DNA from: Flavobacteriales bacterium
GTDB taxonomy: Bacteria > Bacteroidota > Bacteroidia > NS11-12g > UBA955
Length of the DNA: 37,196 bases
Reading direction: 5' to 3'
Assembly: GCA_947457565.1 (NCBI GenBank)
Contig: CANGWH010000014.1
Location: forward strand, 1-37,196
In this document: in pieces, positions 12,605 to 34,544 of the stretch
Layout of the letters: each line of letters starts with the position of its first letter
How positions within the stretch are numbered: the first letter of the stretch is position 1
Notes under the pieces: generated by a model
Told to the model about the DNA's origin: nothing
The model's input: only the letters and a program-made list of their open reading frames with translations
Database searches by the model: none
Program-made: the position numbers and the translations under genes

Positions 12605-14749
12605 ATGGTAAAGAAAATACTTTTAATTATTTTTCTGAACGCAGTTATTAGTTTTAATGGGTTGATAGCTCAAACTTGGACTTCGTGGTACGGGAATGGA
12701 TCAACCGCAATTACTTCGGCGGCAACGGATTCTTCGGGTAATTTTTGGTTTGGAACCATGGGCGATGGATTGTTGGTGAAAAAAGGATCAACATGGATCA
12801 ATTATAATCAGTACAATTCGGAATTAGCTTCTAATTCTGTAAAGTCGGTAGCCGTAGCTTCGGATGGAAGTATATGGGCGGCAACGGATTCGGGATTGTG
12901 TCATTCCAAAGGAAGTGGATGGGAAGTATTCACTGATAAAAATAGCAGTTTTGAAGATATTGCAATAGAAAAAGTAGCTGTTGGAAAAAATGGAGAGATT
13001 TGGGCGATTCAATGGCCCGGTGTACATCGGTACAAAAATGGAACTTGGACGCAGTATACAGAAGCTACCCATTCGGGGTACTATAATGATTATCCAATAA
13101 CTTTGGGTATAGATAATAATGGGGTTTGTTGGGCCGGTGGCTATGGGTACGAAATGTGGAGTTTTGATGGGACTTCTTGGACTACTCGTAAAAATTTGGG
13201 ATTAGATACGGTAGAATATGTAGAGATTTATTCAATTGCATTTGATAAAAATAACGTTCTACACGTTGGCACCCTGGATCATGGTGTATATAAAGTAAAA
13301 TTGGATTCAACCATTCAATACCTCGGCGGTGATATGGGATTTTATCTCAACCAAGTAAATGATTTGATGTTTACAAACGATGGTAAACTTTGGATAGCCG
13401 GTGAAGGAGGAGGAATTGCTATATATGATGGGGTGAATTTCAGCAATCAAACACCTAGCCAAGGTTTGGGCTCTGATCGAGTGGCCTGTCTTACTGGAAA
13501 CGCTTCGGCGATTGCCGCGGTAAATTCAGAAGCAGGAGTTTCTGTTTTCACGGCAGGTACATGGGAGTATTATGATCCAAACAAAATTGGATTATTTACC
13601 GCTTCAGGGATATATTCTATGTCGTTGGATAAATCAAATAATGTATGGATGGGTGGCAATGCTGAAATTGCAAAATACGATGGTGCTAATTGGACGGTTT
13701 ATCGATCGAATGGTACAGGTGTGCCGAACGACGTTGTTACTGCAATTAAATTTGATTCGAAAAATAAAGTTTGGATTTCTTCGTACCGTGGTGTGGCAGA
13801 ATTTGATCAAACTGCCAATTCTTGGATAAACTATGATATTGCTACCGCGGGCTTGCCTTCGGATTATATTTACGATATGGATATTGATACCAAGGATATT
13901 GTTTGGTTGGCTACCGATAGCGGGTTGGTGAAGTTCGATGGAATGACGGTTGTTAATTATAATAAAGCGTCAGGTAGATTGATTGTGGATCAAGTTTCTA
14001 CGGTTTTTGTTGATAAAAACGACAAAGTTTGGGCCGGCACCTGGGGTGGAGGATTGGTGTCGTTTGACGGAACAAACTGGTCGAAAATCACCCAGTCATC
14101 TACGGGTTGGGCTTCGGATTACATTACTTCTTTATCGGCCGATAAGAATGGGAATTTGTGGGTAGGAACGTACGGTGGGTATGCGGTGTTTGATGGTGCG
14201 ACATGGACTACTGTTTCTTCTAGCAGTTTGCCCAATAAGGCTGAATATATTGTGGATGTAAGCTTTGATATTAATAATGATCCATGGATTTCTACGGATT
14301 TAGGGGTTGTTCATAAGCTGCCTACTGGCGATATTTTGTATGTGTCCCCCAGTAAACCGTTGGCTGATAATTTTACGTATCAGACGTTGAGCCAGGGTAA
14401 AGATGTTTGGTTTGCATGCAATAGGGTTCTCAGTAGATTAACCGATGCTGTTACGTTAAGACCCGCGGCAGTGGCTGAAATAGAAGCTATTCAATTGTCA
14501 ATAAGTCCCAATCCAATAAAAGACGGTAATGATTTGTTGCTGGGCATACATGGAATGGATTATGGTAAAAATTTGGAAATTCAAATCGTGGATGTTCACG
14601 GCAAAATTGTGAAAAATATAAAAATCCAAGGCAACGATTTTGAAACTAACGAGTCTATTTCAATAAGTACAAATAACCTTTCGCCTGGGATATATACCGT
14701 GTCTATAAATGGTATTTCTTCGGGAAATAAGTTTTTGGTTATTCGTTAA
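12605..14749 (+). CDS. secreted beta-propeller protein with type IX secretion tail
   Basis: The 714-residue protein begins with a signal peptide (KKILLIIFLNAVISFNGLIAQ, cleaved near residue 22). Residues 25 to about 620 hold a series of propeller blades of the two-component-regulator-propeller type. Each pairs a strand such as KNGEIWAI, NNGVCWAGG, NDKVWAGT or NGNLWVGT with the recurrent (Y/F)DG-(T/A)-(N/S)W, as in SFDGTSWTT, KYDGANWTVY, SFDGTNWSKI and VFDGATWTTV. Residues 631-714 (SISPNP... then GIYTVSINGISSGNKFLVIR) are a type A T9SS sorting domain, so the protein is exported and probably attached to or released from the surface. No kinase or other enzyme domain is fused, so sensing is not implied. 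A strong terminator follows. Confidence 0.88.
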   Translation: MVKKILLIIFLNAVISFNGLIAQTWTSWYGNGSTAITSAATDSSGNFWFGTMGDGLLVKKGSTWINYNQYNSELASNSVKSVAVASDGSIWAATDSGLCHSKGSGWEVFTDKNSSFEDIAIEKVAVGKNGEIWAIQWPGVHRYKNGTWTQYTEATHSGYYNDYPITLGIDNNGVCWAGGYGYEMWSFDGTSWTTRKNLGLDTVEYVEIYSIAFDKNNVLHVGTLDHGVYKVKLDSTIQYLGGDMGFYLNQVNDLMFTNDGKLWIAGEGGGIAIYDGVNFSNQTPSQGLGSDRVACLTGNASAIAAVNSEAGVSVFTAGTWEYYDPNKIGLFTASGIYSMSLDKSNNVWMGGNAEIAKYDGANWTVYRSNGTGVPNDVVTAIKFDSKNKVWISSYRGVAEFDQTANSWINYDIATAGLPSDYIYDMDIDTKDIVWLATDSGLVKFDGMTVVNYNKASGRLIVDQVSTVFVDKNDKVWAGTWGGGLVSFDGTNWSKITQSSTGWASDYITSLSADKNGNLWVGTYGGYAVFDGATWTTVSSSSLPNKAEYIVDVSFDINNDPWISTDLGVVHKLPTGDILYVSPSKPLADNFTYQTLSQGKDVWFACNRVLSRLTDAVTLRPAAVAEIEAIQLSISPNPIKDGNDLLLGIHGMDYGKNLEIQIVDVHGKIVKNIKIQGNDFETNESISISTNNLSPGIYTVSINGISSGNKFLVIR

Positions 14750-14769
14750 TCTTAATTTAACTGTGTAAT

Positions 14770-14800
14770 AAAAAGGCTGCCAAGTGCAGCCTTTTTGTTT
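14770..14800 (+). terminator. intrinsic terminator after the propeller gene
   Basis: AAAAAGGCTGC (14770-14780) and GCAGCCTTTTT (14786-14796) form a perfect 11-bp stem with loop CAAGT, followed by GTTT. It is nearly symmetrical, but only the plus-strand gene ends here. Confidence 0.92.
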
Positions 14801-14890
14801 TATAGAACAATATTATTTACATCGAATTAACATATATGTAGGGGAAATATGGGATTTTATCGCGAAATTCGCGGACTTTTTAGCCTCAAC

Positions 14891-22100: not shown

Positions 22101-23099
22101 TTAAGAATTGGTAACTTCCTCGCGAAAGGCTTGGACTGTTTGGTGAATCGACTTAAAGAATTGATTACGTTGTTTTTCTGCTACTTTGCTTAGGAGGGTA
22201 CTTTTCGACATTATAATATTCAACCAAGATTCGGTAGTTTCATTAAAAAAACGATTATTACTTCGGGCAAAGTTGAATGTATTGTAGCTAATATAACTGG
22301 CCTGGTGGCTATCGGAACGAAGAAAAACGGTGTTGTTCCCAATCATCAAGTCGCTTGCATATAAGTCGTAAGGCGTATCCATGAATTGATTGTTTACGGG
22401 GTTGTATTTTTTGCCTTCTTCTGCCTGTTTAGCCGCCATTTTTAATATCCCGTCGCAATCGGCTAGAATTTCTAATACCGTTTCTTTTTCTTGGAAGAAA
22501 CCGGCTTCCCAATAAAAACGAATTTGCTGCAATGTACTTTTTAGTGTGTCTTCGTTCCATATTTCTGTAGTTGGAATGCTCATAAACATTTCTCGAACTT
22601 TAGGGACGGCCTCCATCCATGCATCGGGAAGTTGAGTTTCTTCAACTTTTCTGCCTTGTAGGGCTACAGAGTTTAACAAGCTTTTGTTCCAATAGACCAT
22701 TTTGAAACGGGCTAATTTGGCAAAAAAGAAATGATAAAACACGGGTAAGTCCTCGGCAGCGTAGATCAACTTGTGGTTGGGGAACTTCATCATCCATAAT
22801 AAATCACCGGACAACACGCGTAAGTAATTGGAGAAACTCTCTGGATCGGGCGTTAATTTATTGATTCTAAACGCTACCATATCCGAATTTATCTCCGCCA
22901 GTGCTTCTAACGGGATGTTATAATGGATGCATATGGCATAAGTTTCGGCTAGGGTTAAGTCTGTTTCGCCTCGTAATCTTCTGTAAATGCTGTCTAGGCT
23001 AACTTTTAGCAGCTCACTTAATTCTTCCGCTAGATTAATATGCGCTGGGGCTGTCCGTTTTAACAGCTCAATAAAATGGTTTTGAACTTGCTTTGACAT
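22101..23099 (-). CDS. helix-turn-helix transcriptional regulator with unknown C-terminal domain
   Basis: Residues 22-50 of the 332-residue protein (INLAEELSELLKVSLDSIYRRLRGETDLTL) form an Xre/BetR-like helix-turn-helix with a clear second recognition helix; LAETYAICIHYNIPLEAL completes the domain. The remaining 260 residues are mostly helical, without a recognisable enzyme motif, and could be a ligand-binding or dimerisation domain seen in other Bacteroidota regulators of this size. The start is ATG at 23099; the longer frame would need a TTG at 23138 and add 13 basic or aromatic residues. A perfect 10-bp palindrome TTTTGCAAAA at 23131-23140 lies 32 nt upstream and could be an autoregulatory site. 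It lies 34 nt downstream of nothing transcribed on the same strand except lolD, beyond the candidate ncRNA. Target genes are unknown. Confidence 0.75.
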   Translation of the reverse strand: MSKQVQNHFIELLKRTAPAHINLAEELSELLKVSLDSIYRRLRGETDLTLAETYAICIHYNIPLEALAEINSDMVAFRINKLTPDPESFSNYLRVLSGDLLWMMKFPNHKLIYAAEDLPVFYHFFFAKLARFKMVYWNKSLLNSVALQGRKVEETQLPDAWMEAVPKVREMFMSIPTTEIWNEDTLKSTLQQIRFYWEAGFFQEKETVLEILADCDGILKMAAKQAEEGKKYNPVNNQFMDTPYDLYASDLMIGNNTVFLRSDSHQASYISYNTFNFARSNNRFFNETTESWLNIIMSKSTLLSKVAEKQRNQFFKSIHQTVQAFREEVTNS

Positions 23100-23130
23100 T
23101 TTGCGATTTTCCGTAAAGCTAAAAAAAATC

Positions 23131-23140
23131 TTTTGCAAAA
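23131..23140. promoter_or_regulatory. palindrome in the HTH gene promoter
   Basis: TTTTGCAAAA is a perfect 10-bp palindrome between the HTH regulator start (23099) and the candidate ncRNA. Its position suits an operator acting on either transcript, but its short AT-rich arms make chance plausible. Confidence 0.25.
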
Positions 23141-23174
23141 ATCACAAATGGCAATAATTTTTTGTAATTTTAGT

Positions 23175-23385
23175 AGATATAAGTTGCTTAAATTCTAATT
23201 GAATCAGAGTTAGTTGCATTTATTACTAATGCGAACTAGACCGTGGATTAATGTCCGTAATGCCCTTTGATTCGCAGCGATAATCTTTGTGAGGTTCCAA
23301 TGGATTGGAGCCTATTGGAATAAGTTTCTAACACTTTAAAATTAGAATTAGCCGCTTCTTGGAAACAGGGAGCGGTTTTGTTTAA
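23175..23385 (+). ncRNA. candidate structured non-coding RNA with its own terminator
   Basis: The 319 nt between the HTH gene start (23099) and the lolD stop (23419) hold no ORF but contain ordered secondary structure. Hairpin 1 is TAGTTGCATT (23211-23220) with AATGCGAACTA (23228-23238), ten pairs and one bulged G. Hairpin 2 is GGTTCCAA (23293-23300) with TTGGAGCC (23305-23312), eight pairs. AATTCTAATT (23191-23200) pairs perfectly with AATTAGAATT (23340-23349), closing both hairpins into one domain. CCGCTTC (23352-23358) with GGAGCGG (23369-23375) followed by TTTTGTTT is an intrinsic terminator. Hairpin 2 and the terminator each contain one G-U pair that would be a C-A mismatch on the minus strand, so the RNA is most likely plus-strand. 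A weak box TAATTTTA is at 23165-23172. Size and closed shape recall 6S RNA, but I cannot assign a family. Ends are approximate. Confidence 0.45.
23352..23383 (+). terminator. terminator of the candidate ncRNA
   Basis: A seven-pair stem, CCGCTTC with GGAGCGG (one G-U), is followed by TTTTGTTT. No plus-strand protein gene ends upstream of it, which implies an unannotated plus-strand transcript. On the minus strand the stem has a C-A mismatch and no good T-run, so it is not the lolD terminator. Confidence 0.55.
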
Positions 23386-23418
23386 TAAAGCAGTTGAATT
23401 TTTAAGTTATTTCGGCAA

Positions 23419-24066
23419 TTATACTTGTCCATCTTTTATGGTGTAAACATGGTCTGCCATATTGGCTAATGCCTGATTATGAGTTACAAGAATAAAGGTT
23501 TGATTTAGGTCTTTGCGGAGTTGTTCAAACAGCAATTGCACTTGATGAGCATTGTGTGAGTCTAGATTTCCAGTTGGCTCATCGGCAAAGACAACCTTGG
23601 GATTATGGAACAAGGCTCTTGCAATGGCTACTCTTTGTTGTTCGCCTCCGGATAATTTATTGGGAGGGTGATTGATTCTATCGGCCAATCCCATATAATC
23701 TAAGAGTTCAAGCCCGCGATTTTCTGCAGTTTTTTTAGGTATTCCAGCAATTAGGCCGGGTAAGATGGCATTTTCTAGGGCACTAAATTCGGGTAATAAT
23801 TGATGGGACTGGAAAACAAATCCAATCTGTTTATTTCTAAAAGCAGAAAGTTCTTTTTTGCTCAAAGAAAAGACATCCGTGTTGTTAATTCTTACTGTCC
23901 CTGAATCAGGCTTGTCTAAGGTCCCTAAAATTTGTAATAACGTACTTTTCCCAGCGCCACTAGCCCCAATAATTGCAGCAATTTCGCCGGGTTTTACGGC
24001 GAGGCTTACCCCTTTAAGCACTTCAATTGAGCCATATCGTTTCTTTACATTATCGCAGAAAACCAT
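23419..24066 (-). CDS. lolD: lipoprotein-releasing ABC transporter ATPase, LolD-like
   Basis: This is the ATPase subunit of the LolCDE-type complex, which extracts outer-membrane lipoproteins from the inner membrane. The 215-residue protein has Walker A GASGAGKST at residues 34-42, Q-loop Gln86 in GFVFQSHQLLPEF, signature LSGGEQQR at 138-145, Walker B with VVFADEPTGNLD at 158-169 and an H-loop in ILVTHN. FQSHQLLPEFSALENAILPGL and ADEPTGNLDS are typical of LolD and close relatives (FtsE, MacB), so a MacB-type exporter ATPase remains possible. The start is ATG at 24066; the 12 residues upstream need a TTG and are not family-like. No permease gene is adjacent. It is divergent from sucC. Confidence 0.82.
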   Translation of the reverse strand: MVFCDNVKKRYGSIEVLKGVSLAVKPGEIAAIIGASGAGKSTLLQILGTLDKPDSGTVRINNTDVFSLSKKELSAFRNKQIGFVFQSHQLLPEFSALENAILPGLIAGIPKKTAENRGLELLDYMGLADRINHPPNKLSGGEQQRVAIARALFHNPKVVFADEPTGNLDSHNAHQVQLLFEQLRKDLNQTFILVTHNQALANMADHVYTIKDGQV

Positions 24067-32804: not shown

Positions 32805-33408
32805 AATGCAATAATTGTAAAACAGTTTGAATATTTAATTTTTTGAAAATATTTTTCTTATGAGTTTCTAATGTGTAATAACTGGTACTCAATGTTTTTG
32901 CAATTTCAACGCTAGACTTTCCCGAAATTAAATGCGGTATGAGTTCAATTTCCCGCGGAGTTAAGGGTAAAACGGAAATTTTATTGTTGTCGTAATCGTT
33001 TAGTAAACCCTCTAAATCGGCACTAACAAAGAAACTATTGGGTGGAGAAGTAGCTTTTTTTATGGCCTGTTCAAATTCTAAGGATGTAATGAATTTTGTT
33101 ACAAAACCTACAATGCCAAGGTTTCGTGCTTTTAAAATATTATTTAATTTACCTGTAGCGCTGATCACCAAAACGGGAACTTTAGTTAGTAGTTTTATCT
33201 TGTTTTGATATACATCAAATCCATTTAAATCGCCCAAGTGAATGTCTAAAATTACTATATCGTACCTACATTCTTTAAGTTTTAATTCTAAGTCCTCGCC
33301 ACCGTTACTCATTCCTGACCACATAAGAAACTCGCTTTGGTCAATAAACGATTTATAGCCTTCCGTTATTATCGGTTGATCTTCAATACAAAAAATGCGA
33401 ATTGCCAT
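32779..33408 (-). CDS. NarL/LuxR-type response regulator (RR2, first gene of the cassette)
   Basis: The 209-residue protein has a receiver with Glu9-Asp10, phospho-acceptor Asp55 (IVILDIHLGD), a Ser/Thr in VISATGK and Lys105 (FVTKF). The LuxR-type HTH (LTPREIELIPHLISGKSSVEIAKTLSTSYYTLETHKKNIFKKL) starts at about residue 149. It is the promoter-proximal gene of the cassette and overlaps HK2 by 26 nt. The ATG at 33408 is the only reasonable start (MAIRIFCIEDQ). Forty-five nt upstream lies a perfect 16-bp palindrome with 7-2-7 half-site geometry, as used by NarL-type regulators, so autoregulation is plausible. Confidence 0.92.
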   Translation of the reverse strand: MAIRIFCIEDQPIITEGYKSFIDQSEFLMWSGMSNGGEDLELKLKECRYDIVILDIHLGDLNGFDVYQNKIKLLTKVPVLVISATGKLNNILKARNLGIVGFVTKFITSLEFEQAIKKATSPPNSFFVSADLEGLLNDYDNNKISVLPLTPREIELIPHLISGKSSVEIAKTLSTSYYTLETHKKNIFKKLNIQTVLQLLHYAKEHELV

Positions 33409-33452
33409 AATAGGTATGGTTCAAATAAACAACATTTATCGGCGCTTCGCTC

Positions 33453-33468
33453 TACCAAATATTTGGTA
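33453..33468. promoter_or_regulatory. 16-bp perfect palindrome upstream of RR2
   Basis: TACCAAATATTTGGTA is a perfect palindrome, read as 7-bp half-sites TACCAAA and TTTGGTA around TA. It is 45 nt upstream of the first gene of the RR-HK-RR-HK operon. The TAC...GTA ends and 7-2-7 spacing resemble NarL-type sites, though the inner bases differ from the enterobacterial NarL consensus. Confidence 0.5.
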
Positions 33469-33491
33469 TAATTGAAATTGTACATAAAAAG

Positions 33492-33518
33492 AAAGCCCCG
33501 TTTCCGGGGCTTTTTATC
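33492..33518 (-). terminator. bidirectional intrinsic terminator
   Basis: AAAGCCCCG (33492-33500) and CGGGGCTTT (33505-33513) form a perfect 9-bp stem around TTTC, with T-runs on both strands. It ends the minus-strand coiled-coil gene, whose stop lies about 126 nt upstream at 33639. The 125 nt in between contain no ORF. Confidence 0.9.
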
Positions 33519-33638
33519 TACTTGAAATAGTATGCTTTATGAGGTAAATAACCTGTAACTAGAATTTTATGAGTCTCATTATTTTTTGGTATTTCAACCA
33601 TAACGAGAATCAAAAGATTACAAGTTCGGAACTAAACG

Positions 33639-34544
33639 TTATTTTAAATCAAGAACGGAAGATCCCATTTTATAACCTTCAGAATAGATTTCAATGGTGT
33701 ATTTACCAGTTTTTAAACTATTATTAGGTTTCCAAATACTTGGTTCCACCGCTTTGGTTTCGTTTTCGAAAGTGGTGATTACTTTGTATGTGTATTTCGA
33801 CGATTTACCTTCGAAATCAAACGTGCTTTCACCGGCCGGACCTATATACGTAGTTCCCTCTGGACCAGTAATTTTCACATAGATGGTTTTTTGACCTGCA
33901 TCGGCAACATTATTTTCGGTGATATTAAAACTGATTCTAAAAGCTTCTACATCTTTGGCGCGTAATGTTCCGGTTTCTTTGCCGGATAACCATTTTTTCT
34001 TCAAAGTTTCAACTTTCAACGCACTAGCTTGTAATCTGCTTGCAAGGCTCTTTAGTTTACTCTTTTCAGTACTCAAGGTTTGAACTTCTTTATTGAGCTC
34101 TGAGTTATTGCTTTTGAGTGTAGAGTTTTCCCGAGTTAATTCTTGGTTTTTTAATTCCAATTCCACCAATTTAGCATTAAGTTCGGTTAGCTTGTTGTTC
34201 AAATCAGAAATAGTAGACTGACTGCTGGCCTTATTGGATTTGATTTCAGCAACTAATTTTGCGATTTCTTGTTTACGACGAATCAAATCTTGGCTCATGG
34301 ATTTGTTCTGACCTGCTAATGCTACTGAATCGCGATGGTACTGTTCAATTAATAAATTAGCTTGGGTTAAAGCCTCTTCTTTTCCTTTTAACTTGTTCTC
34401 AACTTCTGTCTTGGCTGCTACGGTGGTGGATAATTCACCTTTGGTGTTTCGTAGCATAAAAAACATTACCACTACAATTAGTAATAAAATGGCAATAAGT
34501 GTGTACAACAGCGGTTTGTTGTTTTTTTCCTCTCGGTTTTGCAT
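33639..34544 (-). CDS. membrane-anchored coiled-coil protein with C-terminal beta domain
   Basis: This 301-residue protein is not assigned to a characterised family. Residues 11-31 form one transmembrane helix after a short basic/acidic N-terminus, so the bulk probably faces the periplasm. Residues of about 33-190 are a long coiled coil, rich in Leu, Lys and Glu heptads (NKLTELNAKLVELELKNQELTRENSTLKS). From about 195 to the end is a beta-rich domain (FRISFNITENNVADAGQKTIYVKITGPEGTTYIGP...KTGKYTIEIYSEGYKMGSSVLDLK) that looks like an immunoglobulin-like sandwich. Homologues in Bacteroidota are often labelled SMC-like because of the coil, which is misleading. A minus-strand TAATTTTG box lies at 34595-34602. 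The gene is alone, divergent from rfbC. Function unknown. Confidence 0.7.
   Translation of the reverse strand: MQNREEKNNKPLLYTLIAILLLIVVVMFFMLRNTKGELSTTVAAKTEVENKLKGKEEALTQANLLIEQYHRDSVALAGQNKSMSQDLIRRKQEIAKLVAEIKSNKASSQSTISDLNNKLTELNAKLVELELKNQELTRENSTLKSNNSELNKEVQTLSTEKSKLKSLASRLQASALKVETLKKKWLSGKETGTLRAKDVEAFRISFNITENNVADAGQKTIYVKITGPEGTTYIGPAGESTFDFEGKSSKYTYKVITTFENETKAVEPSIWKPNNSLKTGKYTIEIYSEGYKMGSSVLDLK

Follow-up and report, generated by a model that had tools for sequence, protein, structure and literature searches.

In Bacteroidota, intergenic small RNAs (sRNAs) have been mapped as independent short transcripts in F. psychrophilum (PMC9723704) and B. thetaiotaomicron (PMC7366714). 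The -7 promoter box of the phylum has the consensus TAnnTTTG, reported to occupy positions -12 to -5 (PMC9723704) and also given in a second work (PMC7366714). Here, we analysed the gap between two minus-strand genes in a 37,196-nt stretch of Flavobacteriales DNA (hereafter, the window), and compared it with the homologous region of relatives. Our preferred reading, held with moderate confidence, is that the gap constitutes the promoter-terminator remnant of a lost regulator target, from which an untranslated plus-strand RNA of about 91 nt is most likely transcribed, controlled by the adjoining HTH-type regulator. The features of the locus are as follows:

22104..23099, minus strand: gene of the HTH-type regulator (332 aa), a conserved neighbour
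23101..23117, plus strand: TTGCGATTTTCCGTAAA, likely operator beside the regulator start codon, 17 of 17 bases identical in 8 of 8 aligned genomes
23118..23293, plus strand: ancestral control region of the HTH gene and the lost gene, from the colinear alignment with 7 relatives; contains hairpin 1 and the 5' arm of the long-range helix
23255..23260, plus strand: CCGTAA, half of the promoter-proximal operator, with conserved spacing to TTTG
23282..23289, plus strand: AATCTTTG, -7 promoter box, aligned to the -7 box of the divergent gene of relatives
23294..23321, plus strand: hairpin with loop AUUGGAGC (23304-23311), common to the congener, from folding
23294..23384, plus strand: predicted short transcript of about 91 nt, its start from the position of the -7 box and its end from the terminator
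23350..23384, plus strand: intrinsic terminator (hairpin 23350-23377 and T-rich tail), probably that of the lost gene
23419..24066, minus strand: gene of a LolD-like ABC transporter ATPase, convergent with the predicted plus-strand transcript

Flanking genes and the TolB_N-type gene of relatives

The gap is bounded by the ATG of the HTH gene at 23099, with a TTG-extended reading frame up to 23138, and by the stop of the lolD-like gene at 23419, and no open reading frame of at least 60 aa was found in it. The HTH label comes from visual inspection of the N-terminal sequence, and the 332-aa protein found no match in Pfam or NCBIfam; its orthologues are present in 59 of 70 genomes of the family, and it is the probable regulator of the adjoining control region. 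The lolD-like product matched TIGR02211 (LolD_lipo_ex) with an E value of 4e-75, under the curated cut-off of the model, and a lolD scan of genome contigs returned no close relative.

Relatives in genera g4, g5 and others display the order HTH(-)/gene(+)/lolD(-)/sucC(+), in which the intervening plus-strand gene of about 368 aa, whose product matches TolB_N (E 1e-5), is divergent from HTH and convergent on lolD. This TolB_N-type gene was found in 33 of the 70 family genomes; the other 37 lacked a match to it (L119:1564-2667 and relatives), some of these genomes being incomplete. It is absent from both the genome studied here and that of G001, the one other species of the genus compared, in which HTH adjoins lolD across a gap of 320-400 bp. 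We searched the gap for a coding remnant of the gene and recognised none. In other relatives (G005, G063, G068 and others), HTH and lolD are separated by a compact gap of no more than 95-114 bp, and G062 still has the promoter of the gene with an apparent remnant of its start; from these differing gaps, more than one loss of the gene appears to have occurred in the family. Separately, G078 carries the gene in pieces, with an in-frame stop. Across the family, the gene thus appears repeatedly lost or broken, and within the present genus its loss was presumably a single event.

The ancestral arrangement would accordingly be a pair, namely an HTH gene divergent from a TolB_N-type gene which is in turn convergent with lolD. 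Loss of the gene body in this genus would have left the promoter (an operator half-site and the -7 box) and a terminator about 60 nt apart. Consistent with this, the 3' end of the G066 gene and its terminator find a counterpart in the downstream part of the gap (z 3.4; 1 of 300 shuffles as good), a similarity that was clear for G066 only and weak or absent in the four other relatives tested. The terminator therefore probably belonged to the lost gene.

Control region, promoter box and extent of the transcript

The preliminary description had named the control of the HTH regulator as one possible role of the gap, and the alignment with relatives supports such a link. In an unguided alignment of eight sequences (A1; the window and seven relatives), positions 23100-23293 of the window aligned to the control region between HTH and the TolB_N-type gene with one gap column over about 190 nt, located in the window row after the start of the 17-bp site. 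Outside the motifs, the window was identical to each of the seven relatives in 62 to 73 of 163 columns, against means of 43-46 and maxima of 57-62 in shifted registers, the true register being higher for all seven. The 17-bp site beside the start codon, which the HTH protein would bind, has further copies in the genomes of relatives, above a reversed-pattern control.

Within this region, the arrangement CCGTAA-N25-TTTG (23255-23289) recurs with the same 25-nt spacing, as CCGTAR-N25-TTTG with small motif changes, in G062, G064, G065, G066 and G069, and with 26 nt between a CCGTAA-type motif and TTTG in G001 and G059. The pattern TCCGTA-N26-TTTG is found once in the window and was not produced by any of 5000 shuffles. 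The window has a degenerate version (GATT) of TGCG, the other half of the promoter-proximal operator, possibly a sign of decay.

As to the wider distribution of such sites, TTGCGNNNNNCCGTAAA was present in 5 to 12 copies per genome in the four g5 genomes searched (G062, G065, G066 and G005), with 0 to 2 for the reversed-pattern control. Only two copies were found in the present genome and one in G001, and since these are fewer than in g5, the regulon of the HTH regulator may have shrunk in this genus. The second copy in the present genome (G000 contig 7, 49084-49100; L165) stands directly before a gene resembling those of EamA-type membrane transporters and is followed by a -7-like box, TACCTTTG.

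The TTTG of the -7 box lies at 23286-23289, and its last G, together with the reported positions -12 to -5, places the predicted transcription start near 23294. The short RNA would thus have its own promoter, given the -7 box and the operator spacing conserved with relatives. The remaining promoter would drive an untranslated RNA from about 23294 to about 23384, consisting of a 5' hairpin and the terminator hairpin, and the HTH protein would control that promoter. Gene absence, synteny, the colinear promoter alignment, the promoter motif spacing and the terminator are established directly; transcription of the short RNA and its control by the HTH protein are inferred.

This start bears on the proposal that the gap encodes a structured RNA of about 200 nt, 6S-like or regulatory, closed by a long-range helix. 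The hairpins, the perfect 10-bp pairing of AATTCTAATT (23191-23200) with AATTAGAATT (23340-23349), the plus-strand terminator and the gene-free gap were all found where the preliminary description had placed them, and the preference for the plus strand held as well: the 12-bp terminator hairpin has -18.8 kcal/mol on the plus strand versus -7.4 kcal/mol on the minus strand, and the fold of 23185-23385 (-63.7 kcal/mol) gave plus-strand z values of -4.9 and -5.7 in two runs, versus about -2 on the minus strand. The plus-strand score was still -4.0 without the terminator, which speaks for a large structured RNA. Against it, the -7 box falls inside such a transcript, and an RNA starting near 23294 would include neither hairpin 1 nor the 5' arm of the long-range helix, both probably upstream promoter DNA. 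Of 2000 dinucleotide-shuffled versions of the gap, 294 (about 15%) also contained a perfect 10-bp inverted repeat, and the whole window has 15 such pairs; the pairing taken alone is therefore weak evidence. Moreover, the upstream control DNA is unstructured in the congener and in g5 genomes (z +0.6 to -0.9, versus -2.2 in the window), and upstream of 23190 no promoter of recognisable type was seen by eye. We consider an RNA of this size and architecture very unlikely. An unannotated plus-strand transcript ending at its own terminator is supported, with an expected length of about 91 nt and without the helix enclosing the hairpins, as the -7 box lies inside the larger RNA proposed. More generally, where an intergenic gap scores as strongly folded, the signal can combine promoter DNA with a real transcript that is shorter.

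When 620 windows of 165 nt were scanned at even spacing and ranked, only roughly, with 40 shuffles each, the two over the gap came about 10th and 14th. Around 14641-14805 and 33361-33645, both strands fold as strongly as the gap (z about -4 to -4.5), which suggests inverted repeats there.

The predicted short RNA in two species

The fold of 23294-23383 gave a z value of -4.5, much of it due to the terminator; without the terminator (23294-23349), it was -2.3. At its 5' end, the shared-loop hairpin 23294-23321 competes with hairpin 2 of the preliminary description (23293-23312). The former dominates for starts from 23294 to 23296, with a pairing probability of about 0.9, and the latter wins in the window if transcription starts at 23293 or earlier. 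The loop UUGGAGC includes GGAG, a Shine-Dalgarno-like core.

The short RNA might further be a functional, genus-specific sRNA, one that has co-opted the inherited promoter-terminator pair and whose structure and loop UUGGAGC are kept by selection. This constitutes an extension of the preferred reading, so that the probabilities of the two overlap, and we regard it as possible, though rather doubtful. The comparison with the congener provides its evidence. The 3' part of the congener gap resembles that of the window (p 0.005), either half alone being not significant, and TCCGTA, TTTG and a plus-strand terminator are all retained there in corresponding positions, despite an identity of about 43% over the region as a whole. 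Folded separately, each of the two predicted RNAs forms a hairpin with the loop [A/U]UUGGAGC, as well as a second hairpin and the terminator; the loop is thus the same on a changed stem. A hand count of the first stem that allows one bulge in G001 gives four pairs with both-sided and two with one-sided changes; by strict columns, helix 1 has two both-sided and two one-sided changes, and helix 2 has one both-sided change. Out of 4000 flank shuffles, only 28 to 82 equalled the congener hairpin, the number varying with arm length. For the whole structure, alignment A3 of the two sequences had 79.6% of cells paired versus 33-59% in slid registers, a level that 59 of 500 shuffles also reached. The compensatory changes are thus no more than suggestive of a conserved structure, and two sequences are insufficient to prove selection on the hairpin. 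The extra 50 nt or so at the 5' end of the congener transcript, the competing hairpin for any start at or before 23293, and the confinement of the RNA to this genus among the genomes searched also weigh against function. The further step, by which the protein target of the regulator was replaced in situ by an sRNA gene with its loop under selection, so that the HTH protein now acts through RNA, we consider unlikely.

Conversely, the promoter and terminator may be mere relics from which no transcript is made. The degenerate TGCG half-site would fit such decay, as would the complete loss of both gene and promoter in other relatives. The core spacing, the -7 box and the strong terminator, however, persist in both species amid heavy divergence elsewhere, and a silent scar of this kind seems to us an improbable outcome. 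If the RNA is dead, the locus is an ordinary gene-loss scar; under the preferred reading of a transcribed remnant, it offers a concrete candidate for sRNA origin by gene loss, with the ancestral state readable in sister genera. For sRNAs derived from lost genes, the titles and abstracts listed in literature searches yielded no direct precedent.

Homologue searches and comparison with known systems

The gap matched no Rfam family at gathering scores, and a local Rfam search of 23050-23500 (E up to 10) returned only sub-threshold chance matches, with no 6S family among them; GibS and BTnc060 were rejected, as they scored far under their cut-offs. The preliminary description had offered 6S RNA as a possible identity and proposed 6S and tmRNA models as a check. 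The 6S covariance model RF00013 matched nothing in this genome but did match in 5 of 14 control genomes; this result, with the lack of an Rfam match and the unstructured upstream half of the congener region, argues against 6S. RF01685 matched neither this genome nor any control genome and was thus uninformative, and no tRNA or tmRNA was detected. A search of 38 relatives and of 108 genomes of the order for DNA homologues of the gap gave short matches only, and the two from the order-wide search (L163 and L003) were discarded, both lying within coding sequence. A covariance model of the short RNA (R1) gave high scores for the two genus members only among the 108 genomes of the order, where no homologue was found outside the genus; six further R1 matches were inspected and look like terminators of other genes, without the shared loop.

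With 6S RNA (RF00013, RF01685), the locus shares only the size of about 200 nt initially assumed for it. It differs in the absence of a covariance-model match and in a predicted transcript of about 91 nt that has a terminator hairpin and lacks a long closing stem: 6S has such a stem round an open central bubble within one RNA of about 180-200 nt, and here the -7 box at 23282-23289 comes downstream of the closing arm 23191-23200. The resemblance to the intergenic sRNAs of Bacteroidota is closer, as the predicted RNA would likewise be short and non-coding, with its own sigma-A-type -7 box and intrinsic terminator; unlike those RNAs, it is known from sequence alone, has no Rfam sequence homologue and occupies the site of a lost gene. 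Finally, the locus shares with divergent regulator-target promoters a conserved operator-like site beside the regulator start codon and another preceding the divergent -7 box, as well as, by alignment A1 and its register test, homology with the control region of relatives still having the target gene; it differs from them in that the gene body is gone, and only the promoter and the terminator are left.
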